From positions 1 through 51,846 of the IMG/VR virus record IMGVR_UViG_3300041964_000088: a stretch of DNA of 51,846 nucleotides; one strand, written 5' to 3'. Below are positions 9,836 through 50,833 of this stretch, piece by piece. Numbering within the stretch: position 1 is the stretch's first letter; each line of letters starts with the position of its first letter. Source of the stretch: a virus. The position numbers and the translations under genes are program-made. Below the pieces are notes generated by a model. The model worked only from the letters and a program-made list of their open reading frames with translations, was not told the origin of the DNA and ran no database searches.

Positions 9836-11014
9836 TCAGCGATCGCCCTGCTCCCTCAACTCTTCGCTCTTCATCCGCTCAAACACCCCTTGGTGCTGCG
9901 ACTCACTGATCGCCTGCAAATAAATTTTTGTCCGCACTGCAACACTATGACCCGCCCAACGCGCCGCCACACCATCAGGTACACCTAACAAGGCTGTCCG
10001 AATGCACCAAGCGTGTCGCAAGTCATAGGGGTCATGCCAGATCTTCTGTTCCCTGAACTCCTGCGATATCTTTCGCCCCAAGTCCTTGTTGCTCTTGCCC
10101 TCGGTCTGGATATCGGGCATCTGCACATTCCACAACTCAAAGCGATCGCGCCATGCAGATGGACAGGGATAGGCTAGCCGCTGCCCCGTTTTGGTCTCTT
10201 CAAACACACGCACTGCTTCCGTCTGCTGCGTGAACCGCTCCAGGTCCAGGTGAAAGATTTCATGTGGTCGCAAACCATAGGTTGCCAGCATCCCATAGAC
10301 CCACTTCCACCCTGGCTGCTTAATGCCGTGCCACAGTTCTAAGATTTGCGCTTCTGTTGGCAAGTCTTCTGGCTTCACTGGCGTGGGTTCATAGCCGCGA
10401 CTCAGCTCTAAGACTGCCAGCCGGAAACCTTCAAACGAGTCAGCATCGATCGCGCCTTGCCGCTTCATAAACTCCGCTAGCTTCCGATATGCCATGCAGA
10501 AGACCTCTCTGCTGCGAGTCTCTGGCTCCGACTCTTGCAGCAGTGTTCGCCTTAGCAAGTCCAGTGTCAACAACTCCGCCTGAGGCAAGCGCCGGAAGAT
10601 CAGCCGATAGTTGTTGTGATAGCTGCTGTCCTTGCTGGCAGTGCGTTGCGTCGTTTGCCAGTGCGCTGTCTCATAGCGCTCTACCCACTCTGCCACGGTT
10701 GTTGCTGGCTTGTGCTTCCCTTTCAGCCACGGCTTCCAGTCAAACTTCCCCCAGAGGATCTGATTGTCAATTTCTTGCGCCTTAAGTTTCGCTAGCCGCA
10801 GGCCCGCGATCGACGCATTGCAACCCAGCGCAAATTCTTCGCGCTTTGCGACTGACTCGCCAGGGCGTGGGGGAAACCGCCGCCCCCGCACATAGAGCTT
10901 GTCACCCTTCTGCCTGAGCGTGATCGTCTCCAGGCTAGCGTTAATGGCCTGGATCTTCGCGTCTAGATCGTTCCCCGCTTCCCCCAAGCTTCCCCCAATT
11001 TGCCCCAAAATCAA
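9836..11014 (-). CDS. int: Tyrosine recombinase (phage integrase)
   Basis: 392 residues. The C-terminal catalytic domain shows R249 (ATYGLRPHEIF), R333 in DPYDLRHAW, H356 in RWAGHSV and the nucleophile Y365 in RTKIYLQ. The usual first His of the HxxR box is Tyr here. The N-terminal part has a basic arm-binding-like segment and a SAM-like core-binding region. The annotated start is TTG with no good ribosome-binding site, so the true start may differ. It catalyses integration and excision; the adjacent tRNA-Ser fragment at 11083-11150 is its likely attachment site. Confidence 0.9.
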   Translation of the reverse strand: MILGQIGGSLGEAGNDLDAKIQAINASLETITLRQKGDKLYVRGRRFPPRPGESVAKREEFALGCNASIAGLRLAKLKAQEIDNQILWGKFDWKPWLKGKHKPATTVAEWVERYETAHWQTTQRTASKDSSYHNNYRLIFRRLPQAELLTLDLLRRTLLQESEPETRSREVFCMAYRKLAEFMKRQGAIDADSFEGFRLAVLELSRGYEPTPVKPEDLPTEAQILELWHGIKQPGWKWVYGMLATYGLRPHEIFHLDLERFTQQTEAVRVFEETKTGQRLAYPCPSAWRDRFELWNVQMPDIQTEGKSNKDLGRKISQEFREQKIWHDPYDLRHAWCIRTALLGVPDGVAARWAGHSVAVRTKIYLQAISESQHQGVFERMKSEELREQGDR

Positions 11015-11530: not shown

Positions 11531-12504
11531 TTAAAGGCAAACTCCCAGGTCGTTTTGTAGGTGTAGTAGCCGTTATCGTCGCTCTGGTCGAAGATAAAAA
11601 TGAAATGGTCGCGGCGGGTGTTAAAAGCGGGAATGATGCCTTTGATCGTCTCACCTGCATATTCCCCTGGTGGGCGATCGACAAACCCTGTACTGCTGGC
11701 AGGAAACGGCGGCTGTACAAAGCTGGTGGCATCAAAGTCGCCAAGGTCAAAATCGTCACCTGTTAGTCGGATGGAGTTAAGGACCAGCCAGTTTGTTAGC
11801 TCCTTCTCTCCCCCTGCCGAGTTGCCCTCTGCTACCTCCGATCGTACGCTAATCGTGACGGGTAGCCTGCTGCGCTTGAGGACGTAAAAACTAGCACCGA
11901 CAGTCGTTTGCTTAGTGCCATCGATGGCGCCCTCAAAAGTCAGCTTGAGTTTGCGATTCGTCGTGCGAATGCGGGTTGTGATCAAGCCCTGCCCGTTGAC
12001 GATGCGATCTGCGTTGGCAAAGCTAACCTCTTTGGTCACGCCCCCACCGCGAAACGTATAAACCTGATCGGTGGCACGGATGCCAAAGAAATCAAGCTCA
12101 AAGCCAATCTCTTCAACAACCTCTTCCTCGTAGTTCCAGACCTGCCCGTTGATGTAGCCCACGTTGTTGTCTTTGAGCGCTCCCTGCGTGGCAATGCCCC
12201 TCACACCCTCCTGCTCTGGCAGCGTCAGCGGTGAGAGTTGTCCCTTCTGCCCCAACAGCCCGATCGTGCCATCTGTCAGGGGTAAACCCGTCGCCATGTC
12301 GCCTTTGACCGAGTGAGCGTCGTAGAGCTTCCGCCCGTTTGCCGTCTCGGAGCCATCGGGGTAGAGAGCGCTGTAGTTGCCTGTCAGTGGGTCACGATCG
12401 CCAATCCGTTGGGGCACTGGCTTAGACTTGCCTGCCTGCTGTCGGGCACGATTGGCAGTGCGGGTTTCTTCAATCAGTTCCCGGTGTCTGTCGGAAAGGG
12501 TCAT
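11527..12504 (-). CDS. Late virion protein of unknown function
   Basis: 325 residues. The N-terminal 100 residues include DRDPLTGNYSALYPDGSETANG and repeated G/L-rich turns. The C-terminal two thirds are beta-rich (VYTFRGGG, LITTRIRTTNRKLKLTFEG) and end with YYTYKTTWEFAFK. Such composition near the end of the tail operon suits a tail-tip or baseplate-fibre protein. Family not recognised. Confidence 0.6.
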   Translation of the reverse strand: MTLSDRHRELIEETRTANRARQQAGKSKPVPQRIGDRDPLTGNYSALYPDGSETANGRKLYDAHSVKGDMATGLPLTDGTIGLLGQKGQLSPLTLPEQEGVRGIATQGALKDNNVGYINGQVWNYEEEVVEEIGFELDFFGIRATDQVYTFRGGGVTKEVSFANADRIVNGQGLITTRIRTTNRKLKLTFEGAIDGTKQTTVGASFYVLKRSRLPVTISVRSEVAEGNSAGGEKELTNWLVLNSIRLTGDDFDLGDFDATSFVQPPFPASSTGFVDRPPGEYAGETIKGIIPAFNTRRDHFIFIFDQSDDNGYYTYKTTWEFAFK

Positions 12505-12648: not shown

Positions 12649-13347
12649 TCAGGCTGCATTGCGGGCACGCAGGATGATGGTCACGATCTTTGGCGCGCCT
12701 GGGTTGACGCTGACATCAGCCGACTCAGTTGTGAGCTGTGGCTCTGTCCCTGTCGTGTTGCCGATCGTACCTGTCGCACCCCGCAAGAACAGGACGTGAC
12801 GGAACACCATTGCTGTACCAGTCGCGCTATAGGTGGCAGAGAAGGGTGCTTTTTCACCTACTGCACCGATCGCCGTTGCTGCTGCCAGTCCCGTAATCTC
12901 CTGTCGGCTGTAGCTAGCGTGGTTGAGTTCTTTGTTGATCAGCACCGTGATGGGGTCAGCGTCCGTCAAGCGTTGCTCGGTCAACGTGTGGGAGCCGCTG
13001 CCAGTACCAGTAAAGTCGATCGCTGTGCCTGCAAGAGCATTGGCGAGAGTGGTGGCTATTTTGCCCGTGGTCGTGGTGTCTGCGATCCAAAAGTAATCAG
13101 TAGTGGTGTTGAGAGTGCCACTGTTGAGGACAGGTAGAGTGCCTGTCGTGGACAGTCGGACACGTGAGCCTGTGACCATGCCGTGCGGGGTGGCTGTCGT
13201 GAGGATGTCGGTCGAGGTGTTCACCGTGAACGTGTTGCTGTAGAGATCGCCCCTCAGCAGGATCAAACGCCCGAGGGAAGTGGATGGTGCCCAGATACGA
13301 TCGGCGATCAGGGCAAGGGAAGCAGCAGAAAGAGTGCCAGCGCTCAT
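12649..13347 (-). CDS. Tail fibre/tip-like protein
   Basis: 232 residues, Thr/Gly/Ala-rich and predicted beta. The central segment (TPHGMVTGSRVRLSTTGTLP..., residues about 52-125) resembles the repeats seen in phage tail-tip and fibre proteins that read 'TA.PHGL.TGD.V'. The last residues carry KIVTIILRARNAA. Start ATG overlaps the acyltransferase stop (ATGA). Likely a host-recognition or tail-tip component. Confidence 0.55.
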   Translation of the reverse strand: MSAGTLSAASLALIADRIWAPSTSLGRLILLRGDLYSNTFTVNTSTDILTTATPHGMVTGSRVRLSTTGTLPVLNSGTLNTTTDYFWIADTTTTGKIATTLANALAGTAIDFTGTGSGSHTLTEQRLTDADPITVLINKELNHASYSRQEITGLAAATAIGAVGEKAPFSATYSATGTAMVFRHVLFLRGATGTIGNTTGTEPQLTTESADVSVNPGAPKIVTIILRARNAA

Positions 13348-14354
13348 ATAGTTCTCCGGAGAAAGGGACGTTCAAAAGCCAACGAAAACAGCCAGCAACC
13401 GAACAGGACGGGGAGAGCTTGAAGGGCGATCGCACCCCACCCTACAACGCCCTGCCAACCCAGCCACCGACCGCTATAGGCTAGTAAGGCATAATGCATT
13501 AGGTACAGGCTATATGACCATGTTGCCAACCAGCCTAGCCATGGGTGAGAAAGTAGGTCGATCGCTCGGTTGTTTTTGCCTATCAGTACAGCGTGAGCCA
13601 TTGCCTGAAGCAGCATCGCCACCATTCCCCCAAACAGTAGATCGGTAACGGGTAGCATTCCTAGCACATAAGGCTCGGTTGGCAGTTGGCTTTTGATGGC
13701 AATGGAAGCTGTGAGCAGCGCGATCGCTGGCAACATTACAGGCAGTTTGCAATCCAATAATTGCGCGGCGGCGATGCCAAAAACGAAGGCAAACAGCAGC
13801 CACAGATGCCCATTTGGTAGCCCTGTCGTCGCCAGGATTGACGCACCCAGACAGTAGAAGGCGATCGCACTCAACCCCAATCCTGCAAAGCGCCAACGCC
13901 TAAAACAAACGGCAAACACGGGCACTAACAGGTAGAGCCGATACTCGATCCCTACCGACCAAAACACGACTGACCCTGAAAGCCAATCAGTTGGGTCAGG
14001 GAATAGCTCTCTCACCATGAAAAGGTTTGGCAGTAGCTCTCTGAGTGGGAACTGTAGCCAAATACCAGAGCGTAAAGCCTTCGCCATCACCAGCAAGCAC
14101 AGCACCGCTAACGCTGCGAAGTATGGAGGCAACAAACGGCGCGATCGCCTGCCCATGAATGCCAAAACATTGCGTGATCGCTCTAGTTGCAAGCCCAAAC
14201 AAAACCCGCTCAAAACAATGAAGGTTGTCACCGCTTCATAGCCCCATTGTGTCAGCCCATAACCCATCCACGGAAACTGCTGATGATAAGCATGGTGGCA
14301 GAACACAAACAAGGCAGCAAGGGCGCGAACACCGTCCAGGAAGGGGAATATCAT
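13344..14354 (-). CDS. Membrane acyltransferase (acyltransferase 3 family)
   Basis: 336 residues from ATG 14354, chosen because it overlaps the upstream TGA (ATGA). The start FLDGVRALAALFVFCHHAYH contains the family's early Arg and His. About ten hydrophobic segments follow, with RRLLPPYFAAL and WSVGIEYRLYLLVPVF typical of the acyltransferase 3 (OafA/NodX-like) family. These integral membrane enzymes O-acylate cell-surface sugars. The gene sits inside the tail operon between the distal tail protein and a fibre-like gene and is translationally coupled to both. It may alter the host surface or a receptor, an inference from known seroconversion genes. Confidence 0.85.
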   Translation of the reverse strand: MIFPFLDGVRALAALFVFCHHAYHQQFPWMGYGLTQWGYEAVTTFIVLSGFCLGLQLERSRNVLAFMGRRSRRLLPPYFAALAVLCLLVMAKALRSGIWLQFPLRELLPNLFMVRELFPDPTDWLSGSVVFWSVGIEYRLYLLVPVFAVCFRRWRFAGLGLSAIAFYCLGASILATTGLPNGHLWLLFAFVFGIAAAQLLDCKLPVMLPAIALLTASIAIKSQLPTEPYVLGMLPVTDLLFGGMVAMLLQAMAHAVLIGKNNRAIDLLSHPWLGWLATWSYSLYLMHYALLAYSGRWLGWQGVVGWGAIALQALPVLFGCWLFSLAFERPFLRRTI

Positions 14355-17300
14355 GCGATCGACCAGAAGGCTTTCAAGAAGGCTGTAATCCGAGTTCTCT
14401 CGGTTGATGTTGGCACAGCATTCAACCACATTAAATCGCCAATCTCTCCGAACAAGTAGCGCAAGCCATCAGCGTTTTCAAAGGAGTCAGCACCGATCGC
14501 GGCTGTCTTGCTACCGGAAGTAGTTGCTTTCGCGGCGTAGATCACATTGAAGCCAGTCGCGTTGGGCAACTCTGAGCCAATATTAAAGGCGGCAAAATCA
14601 GAGACTACTACTGGGGTGCCGTTGATTTCTCCAGCCGTGGCAGCGTCATAGGTGATTTTATTCGTCGCTGCATTGAAGGTTGCCCCCGTAAGGATATGCC
14701 CCTCGTTACTGGCTGCAATTCCTGGCTTGACAACCCCGCCCGATCGCATCACAAAGATCCCAGGATAGTTATTTGCCGCAAACAGAGCATTTGTTTTCCT
14801 GGCAACCGAGAAGCTAGCAGGCAACGCGAAACTAGCGGTACTGGTAATCAGGTAATGGCTGGAGCCGTTGAAACTTGCACCCGTCGAAGCCGTGAGTGTT
14901 GGACGGTTCCCATTAGTGAAGGCGGTTGTATGGATGCTGCCGATCCACGGGTTGAACCGTGCCACCGGATCGCCTGCCACAGCGACAAACGCCCCAGCAT
15001 TATCCTGGAACGCTGCCCCAGGTCTGAACACCAACCAGTTGAAAATTCGAGCGACCAAAGTATCAACTACTTGATATTGCGTCGTGCCACCGCCGATCGT
15101 CGCCGATGCAGTAAAGGCAGCATCCGCCACAGCCTGACGCTGCGACACTGGCACATTCGGCATCTGAGCCGCAATGTAGGCAGCATCGCCACCGACGATA
15201 TTTGTCGTAATCGTCACCTCCATCTCAGGCACAACAACTGCCTCGACTGGAATCACTTGATCCTCAAGCGTCACCTCCATCTCAGGCACCACCGAAGCGA
15301 TCGCCTCGATGACTGGAATTGCGGTAATGGAGACATCCATCTCTGGAATTACTGATGCAACCACATCCGTGCTTGTTGACAGCGCGATCGTCACCTCCAT
15401 CTCAGGCACCACCGCAAAAATCGCCAGGATCGGTGTACTAATCAACACCTCCATCTCTACCGCGATGCTGCCCAAGCGGTTCAGCACTTCTGCCACAGGT
15501 GCCACAGGAGCAGCCACAGCAACAACATCAATCCAGACCGTCGCTGTCGCTGTCGCTGCACTCGCATCCTGCACTTGCACGGTGTAGTAAGCGCCTGGAG
15601 TCGCCGTGGTCGGTGTGCCAGAAATCACCCCCGCACTGGAGAGCGTGAGTCCTGCTGGGAGGGTATCAACGGTTGCCCATGTGTAGGGAGGGGTGCCCCC
15701 GATCGCGCTGAGTTGCTGACTGCTGACCGCTGACCCTCCGATCGCACGAATGCCCGCGATCGGCACAACCATCAACCCATTGACAGGCACAAACGGTACA
15801 GGCGGTACAGGTTCGGGGATGGTGGGAATGGTGCCGATCCGTCCACCCGTAAAGCTCAGGCTCATTTCCCTGGAGCTGCCATCCAGGATCAGAATCGGCT
15901 CATCAATCTGTAGTTCAGCATTATGGATCTGGCAGCGCGTGAGGGGAGGACAGCCAGCCGCTAGCCATTCGACAGGGATGGGCATGGTGATGCTAACGGC
16001 ATCCCGCCGCCTAATCTCCCGCATCCCCAACTGTCGCGCCAGATTATCAGCGTGGGCTTGAGAGGGCAGAAAGCCGATATCTTCGACCAGCGGCTTTTGG
16101 CGAAACGGAGTCCACCCGATCGGCTGAAGTTGACATTCACCACGCAGGTTTTGGGTTGTGAGTGGAACATCTGCCTGCGTCACCGTCCATTCTTTGCGCG
16201 GCGGCTTCTCCAATCGGAGCGCCTCTCCATCCTTGCCCTTCTGATTTCGCACTGCTCCATCGGGTTCCACTCGTCCGCTGGCGATCGCTTCGGCTTTAGC
16301 AACCTCTAGCGTGGTGTCGCCTGGGTAGGCATCGGGGTTAGTCTGCCCCTTAGTCAAGTATTTGATCCTGGCGTAATCCCGCTCCACAAGTTTTTCTGCC
16401 ACAAAGAGCGAGGTACTAGCGGGCTGCTCGTCGGGGTAGACTTCTCCCGCTGTGCGCTCAAAGCTGGTCACAGTTTCCACTAAATCGCCCGTCGCATAGC
16501 CTAGCGATTCCAGGGGCGGGAACTGCTGCAAAATGCTCTCAGCCTCGCCCTGTGCCACGTTGATCGCTGGCAGCGTCTCAAAGTCCGTGTTGATGCCCCA
16601 ATAACGGTACAGTACCGTTTTGACCTCTGCCAACACATCACTCGTATCGAGCGGCTTGCCCTCGTCGTCGTAGAGGTCGTAGAGGTCTGCTTTCTTCTTG
16701 TAGGTGGGAACGGTCAGCTTGATCTGCCGCCCCTCCTCATCGTGGCTGTCGTCTAGCGGCTGGCTCAGAACCTTCAGCGTCACCCCTCCAGGAGCCGCCC
16801 GCTGCCTGCTGCCAGTGACGATGATCTGCTCTGCCGCAAAGTCAATGTTCTCCAGGTCAGGTTCCCATTCCACCTGTCCGAGCGATCGCACAAACAGCAC
16901 TGGGTTCACGCTCGGATCACCGTTTGCCGTGCGGATTTGCTCGGCACTATCCACCCACAACCAGACGTAGTTAGTCGCGGTTAACCGTTGTGCGTCAGCT
17001 AGCGGATCGCGGGATGTCAGCCGTGTGTCCAGATAGCCAGTCAGGGGGGAGAGTGCGATCGCTGGCATCAGTGTCGCTCCCGCAAACGCTGCCTCTAGGA
17101 GTTTGACCGTGACATCCGTTAGTGCCGTGCCATCCCTGCCTACTGTCGTGGCGATTTCTTCAGCGGGTCGATCGCCTGCTACTGTGTCCAGCACTTGATA
17201 CAAGTCACCTCTACCTACCCTGGTTTGTGGGTTATAGACATACTTTCTGATTCGGAGTGTCGGGATGGGGTAGTCCTCGATCGTCAGTACTACGGGCACC

Positions 17301-40661: not shown

Positions 40662-41492
40662 TCAGGTCGTTGGTAGATCTTTTTTAGGGGCGATCGCTCC
40701 ATTATTTTCTTTGCTTTTTTGCACAAGCAGCGCTCCTCCACCGAGTGCGCCTGCCAGTAGCAACTCCTTGATCGCCGATGAGAGCAGCGATCGCCACTCT
40801 TTGCGCTCATCTGCCCCCAAGTCCTTCAAAAGACCGGAACCCAGAACAATCACCGCCGCGAACACAAGTACGCCAGAGATAATGTGCCTCACTCGACGCT
40901 GCAAGTCGTTGAGTAGTTGCGATTGCTCGGTGTCAAGCTTCTCACGCTGAGCGTCCAGCTTCCCCCGGTGCGCGAGCTGTTCTGCCAGCGAAGCCACTTG
41001 TATCTTTACCTGCTCGTTCTGCTCTACCAACAGTGTCACCTGTTCTTGCAGCAAGCCTAGCAGGTCATGACCTGTGTAGGTGTCAGAGTTACGATCGCCC
41101 TCGGTGTCAGGGTCGTTAATAATCAGCGAGACTTTCGCCGAGCCGCTTTTGAACAGCGTTAGCTCTAAGCCTGGATGAAGTGCGATCGCGCCCTGAATCG
41201 GCTCACCATGTACCCAAATGCCATTTGTAGACGGTTTTTCGCGACTGCCATCAATCAGCACAATGCCTTCGCCTGTGGACTCGATCGTCGCCTGCACACG
41301 GGCAATGCCTTTCGCCCAATCGCCTAGCGTTTTACCGATCGGGTAGGTGCAAGTTTCGGAGCGTCCCAGAGTGATTTTGCTTTGGGGGTCGAGGTTGATC
41401 ACCTGCTTCGATCGCTCGATCGCTCCCATAAACTCGCGCAAGGTGGCTGTCAGCATTGAGATTGCCTCGCTTACTGCCTCCATAATACCCAC
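40662..41492 (-). CDS. FHA-domain membrane protein
   Basis: 276 residues from GTG 41492; ATG 41483 is also possible. Residues about 38-130 form an FHA (phosphothreonine-binding) domain: ITLGRSETCTYPIG, then GIARVQATIES, STNGIWVHGEPIQ and HPGLELTLF. A coiled coil follows (QVTLLVEQNEQVKIQVASLAEQLAHRG), then two hydrophobic segments (IISGVLVFAAVIVLGSGLL and AIKELLLAGALGGGALLVQ). FHA proteins are rare in phages. Two membrane segments next to a peptidase might suggest a holin-like or signalling role. Confidence 0.7.
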   Translation of the reverse strand: MGIMEAVSEAISMLTATLREFMGAIERSKQVINLDPQSKITLGRSETCTYPIGKTLGDWAKGIARVQATIESTGEGIVLIDGSREKPSTNGIWVHGEPIQGAIALHPGLELTLFKSGSAKVSLIINDPDTEGDRNSDTYTGHDLLGLLQEQVTLLVEQNEQVKIQVASLAEQLAHRGKLDAQREKLDTEQSQLLNDLQRRVRHIISGVLVFAAVIVLGSGLLKDLGADERKEWRSLLSSAIKELLLAGALGGGALLVQKSKENNGAIAPKKDLPTT

Positions 41493-42022: not shown

Positions 42023-42044
42023 AAAGCCGCCCCATAAGGACGGC
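42021..42044 (-). terminator. Intrinsic terminator of the 42-47 kb operon
   Basis: On the minus strand GCCGTCC, a short loop, and GGGCGGC (42044-42026, one G-U pair) are followed by TTTTT (42025-42021). It lies directly after the stop of the ATPase gene (42057). The plus-strand fold has a C/A mismatch, so the terminator is meant for minus-strand transcripts. Confidence 0.75.
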
Positions 42045-42056
42045 TAGAAAGAGCCT

Positions 42057-44495
42057 TCATGCAGCAACTTTACGCTTAGGCGGTGGATTTTGAGCAGGGT
42101 CAGGCTCCGTCTCTGCCTCGGATGGTGCGGCGCTTTTGCTAGGCAAGGGGAGGTTGTTCTCAGTGAGCCACGACTTCAGACAGTCCACCGTGCGCTTCTC
42201 AATCAAACCCCGCCGCTCTAGCTTGGTGCCTAACTTATCCAGTACAGCAGAACACGTAGAGCATTCGGCATAGAGGGAGCGATACTCAGCCACCATTGCC
42301 GCATTTTCATCGATCGCTGGTGATTCGGTTGGCTCCGTTGCTTCCGCAGGCAGACTGAAAACGGCACTCAGATCGGCGGGGTTAGCGGTCGGGATCGGCT
42401 CATTGGCAGCATCAAAGTTATCAAAGTGCACATTGAAGGCGGCTCCGCCAGGAATGCGGAGGATGCCGCGACCGGATGAGCACAGTAGACCTGTTTCAGG
42501 ATGATGATCGGGCGCGAGTAGCTCTAATTCAACCAGACCTGAATCGCGCAGGTTCGCGCCCCGCTTTAAACCAACGAAATCAAGGGCGCGATCGTGGGCA
42601 ATGAAGACTGGAGCCATTGCCACTTTGCGAGATTCAGAGAGCGCTGCCAGCGAGAAAGCGCCCAGCAGATCTTTGTCCAGGTTGTGGAACCAGCCACTCA
42701 TCTCTTCACAGATGGGCGAGAGCACCTTGTTTTGAGTCACAAGCTGCTCCAGGAACTGCTGCTCGGTCAGTCCGCTATCGGCAAACGTTTTGTAGCGCTC
42801 GGTGATTTCGCCCAGGTACGTCTTCAGAAAGCCGTTGATCTTCATGTAGTCACGCCCTTGCCCTACGACTTCGGCACCATCCCATTCCACAGGTGATCCG
42901 TGTGGATTGACGACAAATACCGTCTGCCCTTGTTGGCGTTTGAGTCTGACCAACTGCCGTGCGATCGTGCTTTTGCCGCTGCCCTGTGGTCCCCAAATGA
43001 GGAGGGGGCGATAGCGGAAGAGTTCAAAGTAATCGCTCAGTGGCTTGGCTGGCTCCGCTTTTGGCTCGACTGTGGCGACTGGTTGATCCGCGAGCAGGCT
43101 AGCGGTTTCGACTTGAGGAATGGGAGCCAACCAGCGGTTGGCTAGCTCAACGGGTGGCTCTTTGTCCGTGCGACGGTCAACGATGTCGCCAAAGTTGGGT
43201 ACTGGATACCACTTGCGATCGCGCTTCCGATAGCCTGCTGCAAATCCTTGCTTGAACACAGGATGATTGGCGGCGATGGCAGGAGCGGCAAACGCTGCCC
43301 CACTCCCATCGGCAAAGGCGAGATTGGCAGGGCTGGCAAGAGTAAAGACGTTGAAGCTATCGGCATCACCTTTGCTGAAGCCGCGACCGCCCACCGTGTT
43401 GGCAGGCAGAATCACCCAGGCGTAGAAGCCGTTAGCCTGCATCATGCTGGCACTGAGCATGACTTTATCAATCAGCCAGCGATCGAAGCCTTGAGTGTCG
43501 CCAGAGAACACGACTGGATCGATGTCGCACATCTTGACACCAGCCACCAAGCCGAGCAGGCGCGAGAACTCGTCAATGACCAGCACAGTAGGGTTCTCGC
43601 GATCGCGTTGCAGTGCGGTGAACTCAACAATGAACTGGTAGATGCTGCGTACTACTGCCTGTTTGTTGCCAGCATCCAGGTCGGGGTTGTGGAACTGATC
43701 GACGGTCTGCCAGTACCAATACTCACCTGGAAACTGCTTCGGGGTCATCACCCAGAACTTGATGCTCTTGATGCTGGGATGCTTGCCGCTAGTGACCAGC
43801 TTCTGAGTCGCTCGGATGGCTCCCGCAATGAGTACGCCTTTCCCAGTTCGGACTGGGGCAGAGAGAAAGAGGCTTTTAGGGTCAGCCGCGATCGCCTCAA
43901 TCAGATTGACTGGAGCAATATCACTGCTGTCCGCTGACTCCCCCACAGGCATTGCTCCATCGTCTAGCAGGTTCGCTTCAACAGCGGGTTTATCCTCTAC
44001 CGTTTCAGCGGTGACTGTGACCGTGTTGGCTTCCTCTTGCTGGCGTTTGTCATACGCTGCCAGTTCTGCTTTTAGATCGGGTGGAGTGGTCGAGATGCCG
44101 CAATGCTCCAGGTAATCGAGCGCTGAACCGGACAGATATTTGCCATCCTCTAGCGCTTCTTTGAGCTGATCAATCACCGTCTGCTTGCCGACCAGGCTGG
44201 TGAGTTTCAGCAACTGTCGATCGCTCAGCAGGGGTGCAAAGTTGCCTGACTCCTTCATGTAGGCAGCAGCAGAGCCAGATTTCACAGCGCGCTTGATGGC
44301 AATGAGTACCAACGGAGCCGCAACCATTGCCGCCGCTGGCAGACCCAACGGAGCAACCAGCAGGGCAAAGACGGCAACGCCACCGATCAGGAACTTGGTA
44401 TTGCTTTGGGTGACGGTTGAAGCTGCTTCTTTTTCTAGCGCCTGGATTTGTGCCAGCACCGCGTCATCAACGTGAATGAGTTTTGTGGGATGCAT
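42057..44495 (-). CDS. Membrane-anchored protein with two P-loop ATPase motifs
   Basis: 812 residues from ATG 44495 with AAGGAA upstream. A membrane hairpin near residues 30-75 (FLIGGVAVFALLVAPLGLPAAAMVAAPLVLIAI). First P-loop SAPVRTGKG (about 215) with Walker B TVLVIDEFSRLL (about 305); second P-loop LLIWGPQGSGKSTIARQ (about 503) with an ICEEMSGW acidic motif (about 595). The C-terminus (EYRSLYAECSTCSAVLDKLGTKLERRGL) looks like a small DNA-binding or docking domain. The architecture recalls VirD4/FtsK/HerA-type translocases of plasmids. It is the last gene of the operon. The substrate, DNA or protein, is unknown. Confidence 0.7.
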   Translation of the reverse strand: MHPTKLIHVDDAVLAQIQALEKEAASTVTQSNTKFLIGGVAVFALLVAPLGLPAAAMVAAPLVLIAIKRAVKSGSAAAYMKESGNFAPLLSDRQLLKLTSLVGKQTVIDQLKEALEDGKYLSGSALDYLEHCGISTTPPDLKAELAAYDKRQQEEANTVTVTAETVEDKPAVEANLLDDGAMPVGESADSSDIAPVNLIEAIAADPKSLFLSAPVRTGKGVLIAGAIRATQKLVTSGKHPSIKSIKFWVMTPKQFPGEYWYWQTVDQFHNPDLDAGNKQAVVRSIYQFIVEFTALQRDRENPTVLVIDEFSRLLGLVAGVKMCDIDPVVFSGDTQGFDRWLIDKVMLSASMMQANGFYAWVILPANTVGGRGFSKGDADSFNVFTLASPANLAFADGSGAAFAAPAIAANHPVFKQGFAAGYRKRDRKWYPVPNFGDIVDRRTDKEPPVELANRWLAPIPQVETASLLADQPVATVEPKAEPAKPLSDYFELFRYRPLLIWGPQGSGKSTIARQLVRLKRQQGQTVFVVNPHGSPVEWDGAEVVGQGRDYMKINGFLKTYLGEITERYKTFADSGLTEQQFLEQLVTQNKVLSPICEEMSGWFHNLDKDLLGAFSLAALSESRKVAMAPVFIAHDRALDFVGLKRGANLRDSGLVELELLAPDHHPETGLLCSSGRGILRIPGGAAFNVHFDNFDAANEPIPTANPADLSAVFSLPAEATEPTESPAIDENAAMVAEYRSLYAECSTCSAVLDKLGTKLERRGLIEKRTVDCLKSWLTENNLPLPSKSAAPSEAETEPDPAQNPPPKRKVAA

Positions 44496-44505
44496 AATCG
44501 TTTCC

Positions 44506-45630
44506 TTATTGAACGGTTGCTGCTTGACGAGCGCGAACCCATTGCAGGGCGATGATGAGCAAGATGAGAACGACCTCAAATGCAAAGAGCATGACTAGCA
44601 ACTTGGCGAGGTTCCCCATGTTGATGGCACCCCACATACCAGAACTGAGCGCGAACAGGAAGGAGTTGAGGGAAGCAGCAGGGGGATAGAGGCTGAGTCC
44701 AACAACCAGATCAAAGGCGTAAGCGCCGAGCGAGAGGAGTGCGCCCCAACGGATGAAGAAGTAGGGAATCTTGCGGGCTTTGCGGGCGATCGAACGGGCG
44801 GCGGGATCTGCCTGTCCACTGATGAGGAAGCGTCCTGATTGCGACTGCTGGACTGCGCCTTGCAGCGCTTGTTTGTCGAGGCCGATCAGTAGCCAGAGGC
44901 ATTGCAGCGCTTGCACCAAGGCCCAGACCAGCACACCAACTACGGTCACGATCGCGGCTGACCAAGCTGTAACGATCCAGCCAATCAGGGGGAGGGAGGT
45001 GAGCCAGTTGGGAGTACCAACGCCAAGTGCTGTGACCAGGGCCACATAAGGGGCAATGTTGAGCCAGCTCACGTAGCCCATTGCTGCGATTAGTCCGCTG
45101 ACAATCACCCAACTGGCGAGGCGCATAATCCAGCTCTCCTCGTAAACTTCGCGCCCTCTGTCGGCTGTATGGCGGACGCGATCGTGCCAGCGTTGTCTTC
45201 CTGTCCGTCCGTCTGTCGTGGTTGTCATTGGTTCTGTCTCCTGCGAAGTAAACTGTCTGGTGTTTGCTTGAAGCTGGTAGATCACGTCATCGTTATTTCT
45301 GTCGCCTGCTACTCGGTTGTCTGTGTCCTTGATCCAGAACGGATGCTGGTGTAAGGCGTGATGGCAGGTGCCGGGTGTGTGAGCGGTGCCACAAACGGCA
45401 AAGGCGTCTCGCAATGGCACAACGTCATTCTTGAGCAGGGTCTTGCCGTCGAGCGAGTAACGGGCGTGATGCACCTCGGTTTCGCGGTGGTCAAAGTGCT
45501 CGCCACACCAGGCGCATACCACCTGTCCGTTGATTGTCTGGAGCTGCTCTGTGTGTCTGGAAATCTCCTGCCAGCGATCGCCATAACGTTGCTTCCAGTC
45601 ATAGTCCTGTTGTGGTTTTGTGGCTGTCAT
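44506..45630 (-). CDS. HNH-like domain joined to a multi-spanning membrane protein
   Basis: 374 residues. N-terminal C39/C42 (CAWC), H54-H55 (TEVHHARY), C80, C89 and HH90-91 resemble a zinc-stabilised HNH domain. From residue 135 on there are about five hydrophobic segments (ASWVIVSGLIAAMGYVSWL; AIVTVVGVLVWALVQ; LLVMLFAFEVVLILLIIAL). A strong internal ribosome-binding site (AGGAGA) lies eight bases before in-frame ATG 45228 (M135), so a separate 240-residue membrane protein is probably also made. The stop overlaps nothing; the ATPase start follows by 10 bases. Confidence 0.65.
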   Translation of the reverse strand: MTATKPQQDYDWKQRYGDRWQEISRHTEQLQTINGQVVCAWCGEHFDHRETEVHHARYSLDGKTLLKNDVVPLRDAFAVCGTAHTPGTCHHALHQHPFWIKDTDNRVAGDRNNDDVIYQLQANTRQFTSQETEPMTTTTDGRTGRQRWHDRVRHTADRGREVYEESWIMRLASWVIVSGLIAAMGYVSWLNIAPYVALVTALGVGTPNWLTSLPLIGWIVTAWSAAIVTVVGVLVWALVQALQCLWLLIGLDKQALQGAVQQSQSGRFLISGQADPAARSIARKARKIPYFFIRWGALLSLGAYAFDLVVGLSLYPPAASLNSFLFALSSGMWGAINMGNLAKLLVMLFAFEVVLILLIIALQWVRARQAATVQ

Positions 45631-45827
45631 TACTCCTCCTCTGGGTCGCTATCCAACAAAAGGCAAGAAAGGACTCCTGAGAAGGCGGCAACCGAGCCAG
45701 TGGCAAAGCCAAGCAGGGCATAAACGTCTTTTGATTCTTTGCTGCCAGTCACACCAGCAGCAACAAAACCAACGATCGCGAACAGCGTTAAAAAGCCTGG
45801 AGTAAAGCTCCGCATGAACTTGATCAT
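45630..45827 (-). CDS. Small two-helix membrane protein
   Basis: 65 residues with two hydrophobic segments (FLTLFAIVGFVAAGVTG and ALLGFATGSVAAFSGVLSCLLL), positively charged N-terminus and acidic C-terminus (DSDPEEE). Holin-like in shape, but it is embedded in the ATPase operon, with ATGA overlap upstream and TAATG downstream. A subunit of the membrane complex is more likely. Confidence 0.6.
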   Translation of the reverse strand: MIKFMRSFTPGFLTLFAIVGFVAAGVTGSKESKDVYALLGFATGSVAAFSGVLSCLLLDSDPEEE

Positions 45828-46351
45828 TTCAGCACCCCCGCCCGCCGCGCTCTCACCCGTTGCATGGCAGTGGCAACCACCTCGCGATCGGAGGTGCTAG
45901 CGATCGACTGCACGACCGGAAAGCCCTGAGCGTTGTTCTCCAGTACCGAAGTATTGCCGTAGGCATCGCAGACCGTCGAGCCTGCTGGCAGAACGGCAGA
46001 CAGAGGCAACTTGTTAACAGGCAGGTTCTTCACTTTGGCTGCTACGTTGCCGTCGATAACAGGTGAGCCGACAGACAGCACTTTGTATTGCCCAGAGACA
46101 TCGAATGAGAGCACCATCTCACAGCCCTTCTGGTAGCGCTCCAGAGCAATCGGCTCTAGCCCCTTCTGCTTCTCTTGCAGAATCTGCTGCGCCTGTACCT
46201 GCTCCTGGTTGATGGCAACCAGCGATCGGAGTTGTGCCTGTTTAGCCAGCGAGTCTTTAATACCGCCCATGTTGAGGAGGGCGATACCCACTCCAAGGGC
46301 GATCGCGCCTGCTTCCATCGGATTTCGTTTAGCCCAGCGTTGCATTGTCAT
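45824..46351 (-). CDS. Membrane-anchored periplasmic-type protein
   Basis: 175 residues. One N-terminal hydrophobic helix (NPMEAGAIALGVGIALLNMGG), a coiled-coil linker (AKQAQLRSLVAINQEQVQAQQILQEKQKG), then a small globular domain with two cysteines (C77, C128). AAGGAA lies upstream of the ATG. It is probably an inner-membrane protein with an external domain, part of the same complex as the ATPase. Unrecognised family. Confidence 0.6.
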   Translation of the reverse strand: MTMQRWAKRNPMEAGAIALGVGIALLNMGGIKDSLAKQAQLRSLVAINQEQVQAQQILQEKQKGLEPIALERYQKGCEMVLSFDVSGQYKVLSVGSPVIDGNVAAKVKNLPVNKLPLSAVLPAGSTVCDAYGNTSVLENNAQGFPVVQSIASTSDREVVATAMQRVRARRAGVLK

Positions 46352-46373
46352 TTGTCTGTTCCTTGAGTGTGAA

Positions 46374-46404
46374 TTGTCTGGTCGTCTGCTTGTCTGGTCG
46401 TCTG
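46374..46404. repeat. 15-bp tandem direct repeat
   Basis: TTGTCTGGTCGTCTG at 46374-46388 and 46390-46404, period 16 bp. It lies upstream of the membrane-protein gene start (46351) in a 202-bp gap that otherwise holds no gene. Possible regulatory site or remnant. Confidence 0.5.
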
Positions 46405-46553
46405 TCTGACTGCTGACCCAAACAGCCCTTAAAAGCGTGGTTTTGCGTTTGGTTGCAGCAGGCGGGTGGGTGTGTGCGATCGCTCAGCAGACAGGTGGGG
46501 GAGTAGGAAGGGGAGACAGAAAAGTGCGATCGCCCCTCCGATAGCGATGAGGG

Positions 46554-47087
46554 TTAGGACTTTCCCAGGTCTTGCAATGCCGCTAAGGACTGCTGCAAAG
46601 CATCGGTTTCACTGGTCTGAGCGGTGTCAATCATGTGAGTCTGCTGCTGATAGAGCCGCTTCTCCAGGTGCAACTCAGCCGCCTTCTTAGCAATCTTCTC
46701 CTTCGCCTGTCGCGTCTGATTAAGCTTGGCTTCGCGCCGCTGGATGTCTTGCTGCATGGCGCTTGTGACCATATCTGCCGCTTCAAAAAATTGATTAGCA
46801 AGCGTCAGTGGATCTTCAAGCTGGATTGACTCATCCGATCGCAAGCTGTCGAGCGAAAAGGTTTGCGGCAGTTGGGGGTTGCCCATCACGATCTGATGGT
46901 TGCCTACTTCCACCGTGATTTCAGGGGTTTCGACGGTTGGCTCCAGGTCAAACTCATGCAGCAAAGTATTGAGATCGACGGGCGTGAGTCCGTCTGTCGT
47001 CTCAAGATTTAGTTCCTGGCAGCGGCGATAGACGGTGGACTTAGGAAGATTGTGGTCTTTGCAAAACTTGGTGAGGGATGTCTTCAT
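46554..47087 (-). CDS. HTH/coiled-coil DNA-binding protein (KfrA/partition-like)
   Basis: 177 residues from ATG 47087 (the longer frame to 47165 runs through operator repeats and lacks a good start). MKTSLTKFCKDHNLPKSTVYRRCQEL is an N-terminal HTH. The C-terminal 100 residues are a coiled coil (QFFEAADMVTSAMQQDIQRREAKLNQTRQAKEKIAKKAAELHLEKRLYQQQ). HTH plus long coiled coil resembles KfrA-like plasmid proteins. Eight phased half-sites lie just upstream. Likely autoregulator and/or partition-site binder for the operon that follows. Confidence 0.65.
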   Translation of the reverse strand: MKTSLTKFCKDHNLPKSTVYRRCQELNLETTDGLTPVDLNTLLHEFDLEPTVETPEITVEVGNHQIVMGNPQLPQTFSLDSLRSDESIQLEDPLTLANQFFEAADMVTSAMQQDIQRREAKLNQTRQAKEKIAKKAAELHLEKRLYQQQTHMIDTAQTSETDALQQSLAALQDLGKS

Positions 47088-47110
47088 GATGGTTTTGGTG
47101 AAAGGCTTGC

Positions 47111-47207
47111 TGGAACTGGGTTGGAACGAACTGGAACGGGTTGGAACACGATTCTCTCGTTCCACGCTGAAGGAAATCAGTTCCCATCGCGTTCCAAGGG
47201 TGTTCCA
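47111..47207. repeat. Array of eight helically phased TGGAAC/GTTCCA half-sites
   Basis: TGGAAC at 47111, 47122, 47132 and 47142 (steps of 11, 10, 10 bp), then inverted GTTCCA at 47159, GTTCCC at 47180, and GTTCCA at 47191 and 47202 (steps of 21, 11, 11). All fall on one helical face, with opposite orientation left and right of about 47153. This is the layout of a cooperative operator, plasmid iteron or centromere. Confidence 0.8.
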
Positions 47208-47318: not shown

Positions 47319-47570
47319 TTGAGTAATGAGATGCCGCCAAAACGCTTAACGCTAAAGGGACTTAGCGAATTTCACTACAAGTGGGGAAAACTCTGGGCGT
47401 TTGCAAAGAACCGGACGGTGTCTCGACTCATCACAGATGTGTTTGAGGCTCGAATTGAATCGAACCGAGAGGAAATTGAGTTTATGATCCGCGAGATTGC
47501 AGAGCAGCGCGGCATTTCCTACGAAGAAATGGTTGAGTTGGTTCTCAAAGAGAAGGAAGTAGATGATTAA
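47319..47570 (+). CDS. Small basic/acidic protein coupled to GIY-YIG nuclease
   Basis: 83 residues from TTG 47319, with GGGAGG upstream (ATG 47331 is possible). KRLTLKGLSEFHYKWGKLWAFAKNRTVSRLITDVFEARIE could be ribbon-helix-helix-like (L.LKGL....V..L..D...), then an acidic helical tail. It overlaps the nuclease gene by eight bases. It might be a regulator or antidote of the nuclease; inference. Confidence 0.6.
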   Translation: MSNEMPPKRLTLKGLSEFHYKWGKLWAFAKNRTVSRLITDVFEARIESNREEIEFMIREIAEQRGISYEEMVELVLKEKEVDD

Positions 47571-48177
47571 TATTTTTTCGCTTGACCCTTGGAAACTTGA
47601 TCGAATTGATATCCGGAGCAAGCACTTATTGCCCAGCGCTGGGGGGCTTTATTTTGTGTTTCAACAAGACAAGCTTTTGTATGTTGGCAAAACAGAAAGC
47701 GGGTTCAATACTCGGTGGCACTATCGCGGTGGTCACCATCGTGAGTACCAGCTCTTGCAAATGGAGGAGATCACGATCGCTTGCTGGGTTAGGTCAGAAA
47801 CTGGCAAGGAACTTCATGAGCTTGAAAAGCAGGCTAATCAAATTTTCAAGCCACTTCTAAACGGCACACCCGTTACCAAAGGGATCGTGACGACAGGGGC
47901 AGGTAGACGCAAATCCAAGAGAAACCATGTTGACGTACCAGTAAGCAATCTGCTTCACCAACGCTTGCAGAAATTTGCCGTGAAGACAGGCTTATCAGTA
48001 GAAGAGCTTTGCAGCAAGGCGATAAGAAGAGGCTTGCCTGTGCTCATTCAGGAAGAAAGTGATCAGCTCAAAAGAGAGCAAATGTTTAACCAATCGCCTC
48101 TCCCGCCTTATGCAGATTCAGTACCCAAGGAACGGCTAGACGAAGCGATCGCCCTGCTCAGGGGCATGACTGAGTGA
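47563..48177 (+). CDS. GIY-YIG nuclease with C-terminal ribbon-helix-helix-like domain
   Basis: 204 residues. GLYFVF (28-33), LLYVGKT (38-44), R51 and E88 in LEKQANQIFKPLLNG give the GIY-YIG endonuclease fold with its catalytic Tyr/Arg/Glu set. After a basic linker (GAGRRKSKRNH) the part VDVPVSNLLHQRLQKFAVKTGLSVEELCSKAIRRGL looks like a DNA-binding ribbon-helix-helix. It cuts DNA at a site presumably set by this domain. It might be a homing, superinfection or host-DNA-degrading enzyme. A strong terminator follows. Confidence 0.8.
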   Translation: MINIFSLDPWKLDRIDIRSKHLLPSAGGLYFVFQQDKLLYVGKTESGFNTRWHYRGGHHREYQLLQMEEITIACWVRSETGKELHELEKQANQIFKPLLNGTPVTKGIVTTGAGRRKSKRNHVDVPVSNLLHQRLQKFAVKTGLSVEELCSKAIRRGLPVLIQEESDQLKREQMFNQSPLPPYADSVPKERLDEAIALLRGMTE

Positions 48178-49304: not shown

Positions 49305-49835
49305 ATGAACAAAATTCTGTTAGTAGACATCAACGGCACCATCACTAAAACACTGGATGGATCGCCCTTTACATTGGATACGGAGCCGACAGCGATCGAG
49401 CTAATTCCTGGCGTCACGGAAGCGCTCGATCGCTATGTGGCACTTGGTTTTGCAATCATCGGTGTTAGTAATCAAGGTGGCATTGAGGCAGGGTTTCGCA
49501 GTCATGCGAGTGTGCAATCTGAGATGCAGCACACCATGTTGCTAGCACCTCAGATTAGCGAAATCCTTTACTGCCCAGACTTCAAGGGTTTGGAGTGCTG
49601 GAGTGTCACTCCGTTTCAGTGGGCAGAATGCCATAACTCAGATCTGGCAGGCGCTTATCGCAAACCGAACCCAGGAATGCTTCAGTGGGCAATGCCAGAC
49701 GCGCCATACTTCGCCGTCATGGTGGGCGATCGTGACGAAGACCGTCAAGCAGCCGCAGCGATCGACGTCATCTTTCTGGATGCCGCTGCCTGGAGAGAAG
49801 GCGCGATCGCCACACCAGAAGCCGTCATCCTTTAG
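49305..49835 (+). CDS. HAD-superfamily phosphatase-like protein with altered motif I
   Basis: 176 residues. Motif I is LLVDINGTI (D8, N10): the usual DxDGT has Asn at the second Asp. Motif II GVSNQGGIEAG (residues 53-63), K120 in YRKPNPGM, and motif IV VGDRDEDRQAA (140-150) match the HAD III-A group (polynucleotide 3'-phosphatase, histidinol-phosphatase). The lost second Asp is the general acid in phosphatases, so activity may be low or different. DNA-end repair is possible, given the neighbouring Rad52-like gene. Confidence 0.75.
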   Translation: MNKILLVDINGTITKTLDGSPFTLDTEPTAIELIPGVTEALDRYVALGFAIIGVSNQGGIEAGFRSHASVQSEMQHTMLLAPQISEILYCPDFKGLECWSVTPFQWAECHNSDLAGAYRKPNPGMLQWAMPDAPYFAVMVGDRDEDRQAAAAIDVIFLDAAAWREGAIATPEAVIL

Positions 49836-49918
49836 CCGTAACAGCCACTGCGATCGGGCGCATTCACACACCCACCGCTGGCACCCTTCCCTGTCAGCTT
49901 CCCTATCCCCTCACAGTC

Positions 49919-50833
49919 ATGAGCTTCACAGAAATCATCAATCGCTTAAAAGAACCGTTTCCGCCTGAGCTGCACGTAGAGCGCGATCTCCCAGGTGGCG
50001 GGAAATGGTTTTACGTCACCTGGCAACGCATTCGAGAACGCCTGGATGATGTTTGCCCTGAGTGGCGCATCGAATACGGTACTCCGTTCTACCTGGACAA
50101 ATATTGTGTGGTCAGTTGCAAGCTGACGATCGCAGGTATCAGCCGTGAAGCCTTGGGCAATGCCGAGATTGAATTACTCAGCAAAACTGGCAAGGATATG
50201 AGTCGGGGGACGGCGATCGAACGTGCCCTAGCCGATGCCTTTAAGAATGCTGCCGAAGCGTTTGGGGTCTGCCGCTACTTGGACGAGCAGAGCAAAGACA
50301 AGCGCGAGTTTACCATCCGCTATTTGCAAGCAAAAGGCGATGGGCGAGGCGTCAAGGTTGCTGCTGAAAACGGCTGGCTCCCTGGCAACCTCAATCCTGA
50401 AGCCACAGAAGCACGCAAAAGGGCAGAGTTTGCTGCCAAGCATCCACTGCCTAAAAGTGCTGCCAGTGCCAAGCCAATGCCGGCACGCCCAGCGCCCGTT
50501 CACGTAGAGCCATTGACCACCAACCGCGATCGCTTCATCCGGCTTCGCACTTTGACGGGTCACGCCTCAGAGCAGGTCAAAACGTTGTGTCAGGAGTTAA
50601 ACATCCCGCCTGCTGCCAATAGCCTTAATGCCGCTCAATGCTTGCAGTTGCGTGATGCCATGCTCACTGACTGGGCGATGGGTCAACAACGGTTCAAGCA
50701 TCTCAACCATGCCCAAAACAGTTTCAACAATGTGCTGGCCAGCTTCGAGCAACCGCCAGATGACGATCAGCTCTGGGTGGTTTGGGAAACAAAGGTGCTG
50801 GAAAAGCCTGTACTGGAAGCAACCACTGCCTAA
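49919..50833 (+). CDS. Rad52-family single-strand annealing protein
   Basis: 304 residues. LKEPFPPELHVERDLPGGGKWFYVTWQRIRERLDDVCPEW, then CVVSCKLTIAG...REALGNAEIE and SRGTAIERALADAFKNAAEAFGVCRYL are characteristic of the Rad52/Rad22 fold (residues about 8-125). The C-terminal half is a Pro/Ala linker plus a helical domain (RFIRLRTLTGHASEQVKTLCQELNI). It promotes strand annealing in phage recombination and replication. It lies downstream of the HAD gene. Confidence 0.85.
   Translation: MSFTEIINRLKEPFPPELHVERDLPGGGKWFYVTWQRIRERLDDVCPEWRIEYGTPFYLDKYCVVSCKLTIAGISREALGNAEIELLSKTGKDMSRGTAIERALADAFKNAAEAFGVCRYLDEQSKDKREFTIRYLQAKGDGRGVKVAAENGWLPGNLNPEATEARKRAEFAAKHPLPKSAASAKPMPARPAPVHVEPLTTNRDRFIRLRTLTGHASEQVKTLCQELNIPPAANSLNAAQCLQLRDAMLTDWAMGQQRFKHLNHAQNSFNNVLASFEQPPDDDQLWVVWETKVLEKPVLEATTA

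Follow-up and report, generated by a model that had tools for sequence, protein, structure and literature searches.

In type II partition loci (ParMRC, e.g. R1 parMRC), a ParM-type actin gene is followed by the gene for a small ribbon-helix-helix (RHH)-like protein and a phased repeat array is expected upstream; the parC repeats of R1 form two sets of five, as cited in PMC4949242. R1 also sets a precedent for contact between a ParM actin and a DNA motor of the membrane, TraD (PMC4949242). FcmBC, a chromosomal ParM/ParR-derived system of filamentous cyanobacteria, shows that the ParM-type actins of these organisms can gain envelope roles (PMC12645912). Membrane DNA motors of the FtsK, HerA, TcpA and VirD4 types, for their part, have an N-terminal transmembrane (TM) hairpin and a RecA-like P-loop domain.

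The DNA analysed here (the window) is a 51,846-base IMG/VR virus record from a tailed cyanobacterial phage. It carries a minus-strand operon whose relatives likewise encode a ParM-type actin then a small RHH-like protein, and upstream of which a phased repeat array resembles the two repeat blocks of R1 parC. However, the window has no ParM, and was therefore not assigned to ParMRC; its repeats form inverted blocks of four, and ParMRC has no membrane complex with an FtsK/HerA-like ATPase, which is the core of the module described here. The window ATPase shares the TM hairpin and the RecA-like P-loop domain with FtsK/HerA/TcpA/VirD4 motors, with marginal profile matches, but the phage has no gamma domain, relaxase or type IV secretion system (T4SS) partners, and two homologous P-loop domains stand in tandem in one chain. 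FcmBC is similar in its ParM-type actin and downstream partner, its occurrence in filamentous cyanobacteria and its action at the cell envelope, and differs in being chromosomal, in controlling cell shape and in that no membrane ATPase is described there (PMC12645912). In R1, the motor gene is part of a conjugation operon apart from ParM; here, the motor and ParM are encoded in one operon. The module would thus resemble, in its way of working, a partition locus of the ParM type to which a membrane motor has been added. The best-supported reading, which we put forward tentatively, is that the operon is a membrane-docked machine for the segregation or maintenance of a mobile element's DNA; DNA transfer and defence are rival readings to be taken seriously.

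The tailed-phage genes of the window encode a terminase, a Mu-like portal, a Mu F-like protein, a capsid protein and a tape measure protein, and a tyrosine integrase gene was found at 9836-11014. End repeats were looked for in the 51,846-base contig and none were found, so that it could be a fragment or permuted. The virus had been considered a phage-plasmid; with its tyrosine integrase, no closed circle and no plasmid Rep recognised in the window, this status is conjectural. No relaxase was recognised among the large window proteins (Pfam scan). We also observed, in the tail region, a gene for a membrane acyltransferase (Acyl_transf_3, 13344-14429), which is 36% identical to an acyltransferase from the tail region of a Stenomitos prophage and might play a role in surface modification by lysogens. 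Genes for a Rad52-like protein and a 3' phosphatase of the PNKP type adjoin each other at 49305-50833, and the two were also found next to the module in another phage contig (G283:C34). On the 3' side of the operon terminator, an FHA-domain protein with a C-terminal TM helix is encoded at 40662-41492, adjoined by a C39-like peptidase.

The operon was confirmed to comprise five minus-strand open frames within 42057-47165 (Table 1). From 46351 to 42057, these are tightly packed, with two overlaps of 4 or 1 bases and one gap of about 10 bases. The first gene, HTHcc, is separated from the remaining genes by 202 bp, so that the single transcript initially proposed is likely rather than certain. The HTH-like N-terminus and coiled-coil-like C-terminus of HTHcc, the two TM segments of the small peptide, and the TM hairpin and two P-loops of the ATPase were all found as first annotated. 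The same holds for the terminator, located directly 3' of the ATPase stop; six terminator-like matches were found in the region versus 7.8 expected by chance, so that only its placement is telling.

The protein described in the initial annotation as an HNH-like membrane protein does exhibit HNH-type residues, and a single open frame (45630-44506) spans HNH (to 45229) and memTM. However, these are probably two units, because the closest relative, on contig C63, has no HNH part but keeps the ATG at 45228 and its surroundings; for the same reason, an HNH-membrane fusion was rejected as a basic feature of the operon. From this Met onward, memTM, whose family is conserved, was 90% identical to the C63 protein. 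HNH is a separate gene in other loci, and related stand-alone HNH genes were observed at the 3' end of other modules. A tblastn search of plasmids with the HNH-membrane frame gave no match. The mem175 protein, which we propose to be membrane-anchored with a periplasmic domain, has homologues in about 20 independent loci; its AlphaFold model (pLDDT 81) matched no fold in the PDB (E >= 1.5). No named family was found for mem175, memTM or HTHcc in Pfam, PHROGs, PADLOC and NCBIfam scans, the last of these covering the C63 neighbour genes only, and there was no Rfam match in window 40-48.5 kb.

Table 1. Features of the operon and its surroundings (window positions)
Feature	Position	Strand	Remarks
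Rho-independent terminator-like hairpin	42025..42045	-	9-bp stem and T run, 12 bases past the ATPase stop
Membrane ATPase, 812 aa: TM hairpin (aa 40-71), P-loop domains D1 then D2, C-terminal tail	42057..44495	-	start at 44495
D2 segment of the ATPase	42255..43104	-	gap in the DNA matches to the otherwise ~80% identical C63 operon
memTM, 240-aa multi-TM protein	44506..45228	-	own ATG and Shine-Dalgarno (GGAG)
HNH-type nuclease domain, accessory, in frame with memTM	45229..45630	-	CxxC...ExHH...CHxxxH residues
2-TM peptide, 65 aa	45630..45827	-	hydropathy; no homologue in C63
mem175: N-terminal membrane anchor, long helix, small beta domain, two invariant Cys	45824..46351	-	
HTHcc, 177-aa HTH and coiled-coil-like putative DNA-binding adaptor	46554..47087	-	start at 47087, a longer frame crosses the repeat array
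Iteron array, candidate operator/centromere	47112..47206	.	4 GGAAC facing 4 GTTCC
Divergent 83-aa protein, possibly ribbon-helix-helix	47319..47570	+	weak Pfam match to DUF6364 (E 0.004), below cut-off

As with the possible RHH protein of the window, C63, Kovacikia, G392 and Nostoc plasmids have a small gene of RHH or CopG/ParG type that points away from the operon. A GIY-YIG-like protein (E 0.015) is also encoded divergently from the window operon, at 47563-48177, and Stenomitos, G305 and G190 also have GIY-YIG-type genes in the vicinity of the module. Putative short CAGAC/GGCAGACA repeats were noted 5' of mem175 both in the phage window (46358-46420) and in a plasmid (L090, 17355-17405).

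The ATPase is RecA-like, with a Walker A/B domain and an N-terminal TM anchor, and its domains D1 and D2 are mutually homologous (hhalign E 6e-7). Its N-terminal part and D1 were 85% identical to the C63 ATPase, which consists of these parts only, and D2 was 62% identical to a Stenomitos prophage protein consisting of D2 only. Since the window ATPase alone, within the compared set, has D1 and D2 in tandem, with two lineages in one chain, it is probably a chimera. Comparison with VirD4, HerA and FtsK, as first suggested, gave a mixed answer: a weak similarity to FtsK/TcpA/HerA-type motors was detected, but the E-values of D2 against PDB profiles were only marginal (TcpA, 0.005; HerA/DUF87, 0.015; VirB4, 0.08; FtsK, 0.09). 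The fold match of D1 was generic: among RecA-like rings, Rho scored best, with the FtsK motor at 2e-4, and confidence in the D1 model was moderate (pLDDT 80-90 in the core, 62 overall). For the two structure predictions, alignment rows from plasmid records were left out, as was, for folding, a mixed alignment (A5) that had put D1-only proteins on D2.

C63, the closest relative of the window operon, is a 28-kb draft contig of Leptolyngbya sp. FACHB-321, whose gene content (two ParA genes, a primase-like putative Rep and a recombinase) points to a plasmid; no virion genes were recognised among the C63 proteins examined. DNA matches of about 80% were found at 42069-42254, 43105-45235 and 45824-46355, and the HNH part and 2-TM gene are absent from C63. 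Only the operon, with its core of mem175, memTM and ATPase, is common to C63 and the window, and therefore the module was exchanged rather than whole genomes. For mem175, memTM and the N-terminal part and D1 of the ATPase, dN/dS between the two was about 0.10. This ratio indicates that the genes are under purifying selection, with the same strong constraint in the phage and plasmid versions; both would thus be functional.

Neither a nucleotide search of PLSDB with the window, nor a tblastn search of INPHARED phages with the whole ATPase, nor a single-sequence ATPase scan of IMG/VR gave a match, and relatives were reached by profile queries only. The genes were then found to recur, in order, in many genomes, both on plasmids and in other phages, so that the initial reading is not refuted by a lack of co-occurrence elsewhere; the initial expectation that such a set would be unusual was thus wrong in one sense, as it is a recurrent cyanophage cassette. 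A complete Kovacikia plasmid, in which the module spans the start of the record, has an unchanged order of genes for an HTH protein, a coiled-coil protein, mem175, memTM, a 2-TM protein and the ATPase. Further, diverged relatives came from the profile scans, on a complete Scytonema plasmid (AP018200) and on contigs from Microcoleus, Symplocastrum, Leptolyngbya and other cyanobacterial genomes. Nostoc-type plasmids have the ATPase D2 domain and the overall layout in common with the window; their membrane proteins differ. The named hosts all belong to filamentous genera.

Among the phage carriers, which likewise have diverged versions, the Stenomitos prophage encodes a serine integrase, a terminase, a portal and a capsid protein, and its module begins with ParM; this 102,201-bp unit is present as two exact tandem copies in the chromosome, with flanking chromosomal genes including rpoB. 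The site of the tandem is at about 8.07-212 kb of Stenomitos rutilans scaffold JAHHIE010000002 (L148-L154, L011, L012), where each copy begins with the serine integrase gene; it could correspond to a tandem lysogen or to an assembly effect. The module was also found on G283:C34, a contig of 50 kb from a Mu-like myovirus that encodes portal, capsid, sheath and tape measure proteins, and on IMG/VR contigs of up to 92 kb (L161-L164), one of which, L161, has the ATPase only, at the contig edge. In most of the other carrier phages, the order was HTH, HTH-coiled-coil, mem175, memTM, ATPase, HNH. IMG/VR contigs L084-L087, which have a D2-like ATPase only, without mem175 or memTM, were left out as carriers.

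On plasmids, the operon is usually headed by genes for a ParM-type actin and small proteins, which bears out the likeness to plasmid partition noted in the initial annotation. Searching PDB profiles identified the actin as a true ParM (E 4e-17 against a ParM structure); there is none in the window operon, and it is present in most plasmid relatives and in the Stenomitos prophage. Of the 65 ATPase loci for which 6 kb or more of upstream sequence was available, 48 have ParM upstream on the same strand, and 56 have either ParM or an HTHcc; in this count, related Nostoc loci were entered separately, and a few of the remaining loci were doubtful matches. Two Nostoc plasmids, AP018331 and CP117769, are 91-94% identical in the ATPase and the two preceding genes, but ParM and its RHH partner are swapped for two HTH proteins. 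This natural swap suggests that HTH proteins may take the place of ParM and the RHH protein. In the limited literature searched, no published operon combining a ParM actin with a membrane ATPase after it came to light.

Upstream of HTHcc, eight copies of a short box were found within 95 bp, with GGAAC at 47112, 47123, 47133 and 47143, and GTTCC at 47159, 47180, 47191 and 47202. The boxes are spaced by 10-11 or 21 bases, i.e. in helical phase. This density was reached in none of 2000 dinucleotide shuffles; the array is the densest cluster in the window (the next best, unrelated cluster had 4), and the half-array pattern is unique within it. A putative site of centromere-like phased repeats is thus present 5' of the operon. 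Upstream of the ParM operons, repeat arrays were weak in most loci.

HTHcc was 60% identical to its homologue on Stenomitos contig C81, where five array copies are in place upstream of the gene. In C63, the C-terminal ~120 aa of HTHcc are conserved, the N-terminus differs, and the array is absent upstream of the gene. A blind pattern scan of 2.9 million IMG/VR viral contigs gave 15 matches, 2 of which were directly upstream of HTHcc homologues (97% and 60% identical) on phage contigs; homologues preceded by the array are thus found in Stenomitos C81, G391 and G392. Because the array goes along with a conserved HTHcc N-terminus and the blind scan recovers HTHcc, the two appear to be linked, most simply as a site and its predicted binder. 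In G392, HTHcc is followed by 2-TM, membrane-anchored and Walker-A membrane proteins and an HNH-like gene, and these membrane proteins showed no detectable similarity to their window counterparts. In G391 (L184), a 107-kb IMG/VR contig, the HTHcc gene (about 11,690-12,230), 97% identical to that of the window, is broken by a frameshift/stop; the array is intact despite this. No homology was detectable between the window HTHcc and the HTH-coiled-coil proteins of other carrier phages, so that the likeness between them is one of analogy only.

In the mechanism that we propose, HTHcc would bind the phased iteron array upstream of the operon, which would be operator and centromere-like site at once; in other loci, the ParM actin and small RHH-type proteins would take the role of HTHcc. 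Mem175, through its anchor and periplasmic domain, and memTM would hold this adaptor at the membrane, where the N-terminally anchored FtsK/HerA-like ATPase would spend ATP on holding, positioning or pumping the DNA bound by the adaptor, resulting in the inheritance of phage or plasmid copies; HNH would be an accessory nuclease. The observations cover the conservation, order and purifying selection of the genes, the swapped adaptors, the array and its link with HTHcc, and the motifs and membrane segments of the ATPase; that HTHcc binds the array, that the proteins form a complex, that ATP drives an action on DNA and that segregation is its purpose are inferences. Given the RecA-like ATPase, the adaptor swapping and the array, docking on a membrane motor for maintenance seems the simplest mechanism. 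The module is probably a device shared by phages and plasmids that holds or moves the DNA of the element at the membrane. Some observations count against this reading, and against ordinary partition in particular: a ParA or ParAB system of their own is encoded by several carrier plasmids, for which the module may thus be only a secondary means of partition; integration into the chromosome is seen for the Stenomitos carrier, one module is located on a 5.46-Mb contig, and the window has an integrase. The mostly weak arrays of the ParM operons and the marginal or generic motor similarities count against it as well. Moreover, the recurrent HNH fits a nuclease effector equally well.

Such an effector is central to the strongest rival reading, exclusion or anti-phage defence, in which the membrane ATPase would be a sensor, HNH its effector, and HTHcc and the array an autoregulatory pair. 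HNH recurs in the window, Stenomitos, G283:C34, G289, L162, L164 and G391, GIY-YIG genes lie nearby, and prophages and plasmids are the usual carriers of defence genes. In PADLOC, D2 matched mad8 (E 5e-9), over little beyond the P-loop region, and HNH weakly matched PtuB; however, the operon matched no complete defence system. HNH is also missing from many members, including the closest one, and on plasmids the operon is tied to ParM/RHH partition genes, all of which makes a defence role rather unlikely.

Alternatively, the ATPase could be a coupling or translocation motor (VirD4/TcpA/TraB-like) to which ParM or HTHcc would bring DNA, for conjugation or for movement along the filament; TraB/Spd of Streptomyces is an analogue. 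This would fit the filamentous genera of all named hosts, the marginal TcpA profile match, the typing of 23 of the 34 plasmids with the ATPase as mobilizable, and the MobC/relaxase genes about 2 kb beyond the ATPase of the Kovacikia plasmid. The contact between R1 ParM and TraD is a precedent here as well (PMC4949242). However, the other 11 plasmids were typed non-mobilizable, no relaxase was recognised in the phage carriers of the module, whose DNA is already moved by the virion, and the operon showed no T4SS channel set. Plasmids also abound in filamentous cyanobacteria, and the host bias may reflect sampling. A full T4SS identity is not supported, and the conjugation coupling envisaged at first is, in our view, unlikely. 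The operon was confirmed to match neither virion nor lysis modules, with no PHROG match to either and with homologues on plasmids that lack virion genes. If the role were specific to phages (packaging, DNA ejection or host takeover), the copies on plasmids would be relics of capture. This would suit the module position near the TerL/portal side in the window and beside a terminase-like gene in L164 (HNH genes are common near terminases), but is highly improbable, as plasmids that have no virion genes carry most of the copies, with long frames intact, the module position differs among phages, and the phage and plasmid versions are equally constrained.

We therefore favour, still tentatively, the membrane-docked segregation or maintenance machine. 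A more far-reaching version, which we regard as speculative and improbable as it stands, is that of a new kind of machine common to phages and plasmids of multicellular cyanobacteria, in which an interchangeable adaptor that binds a centromere (ParM with small RHH-type proteins, or an HTH-coiled-coil protein with iterons) would deliver DNA to a dedicated membrane motor for segregation or for passage across the division septum. The adaptor swap and the HTHcc-linked array make the module directly testable, and the array alone can find further carriers by DNA search, as done here. Partition actins, membrane DNA motors and temperate phages, which are normally separate subjects of study, are joined in this module. 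If its motor acts in segregation, a membrane-motor class of partition systems would be hidden among the 'hypothetical proteins' of cyanobacterial plasmids.
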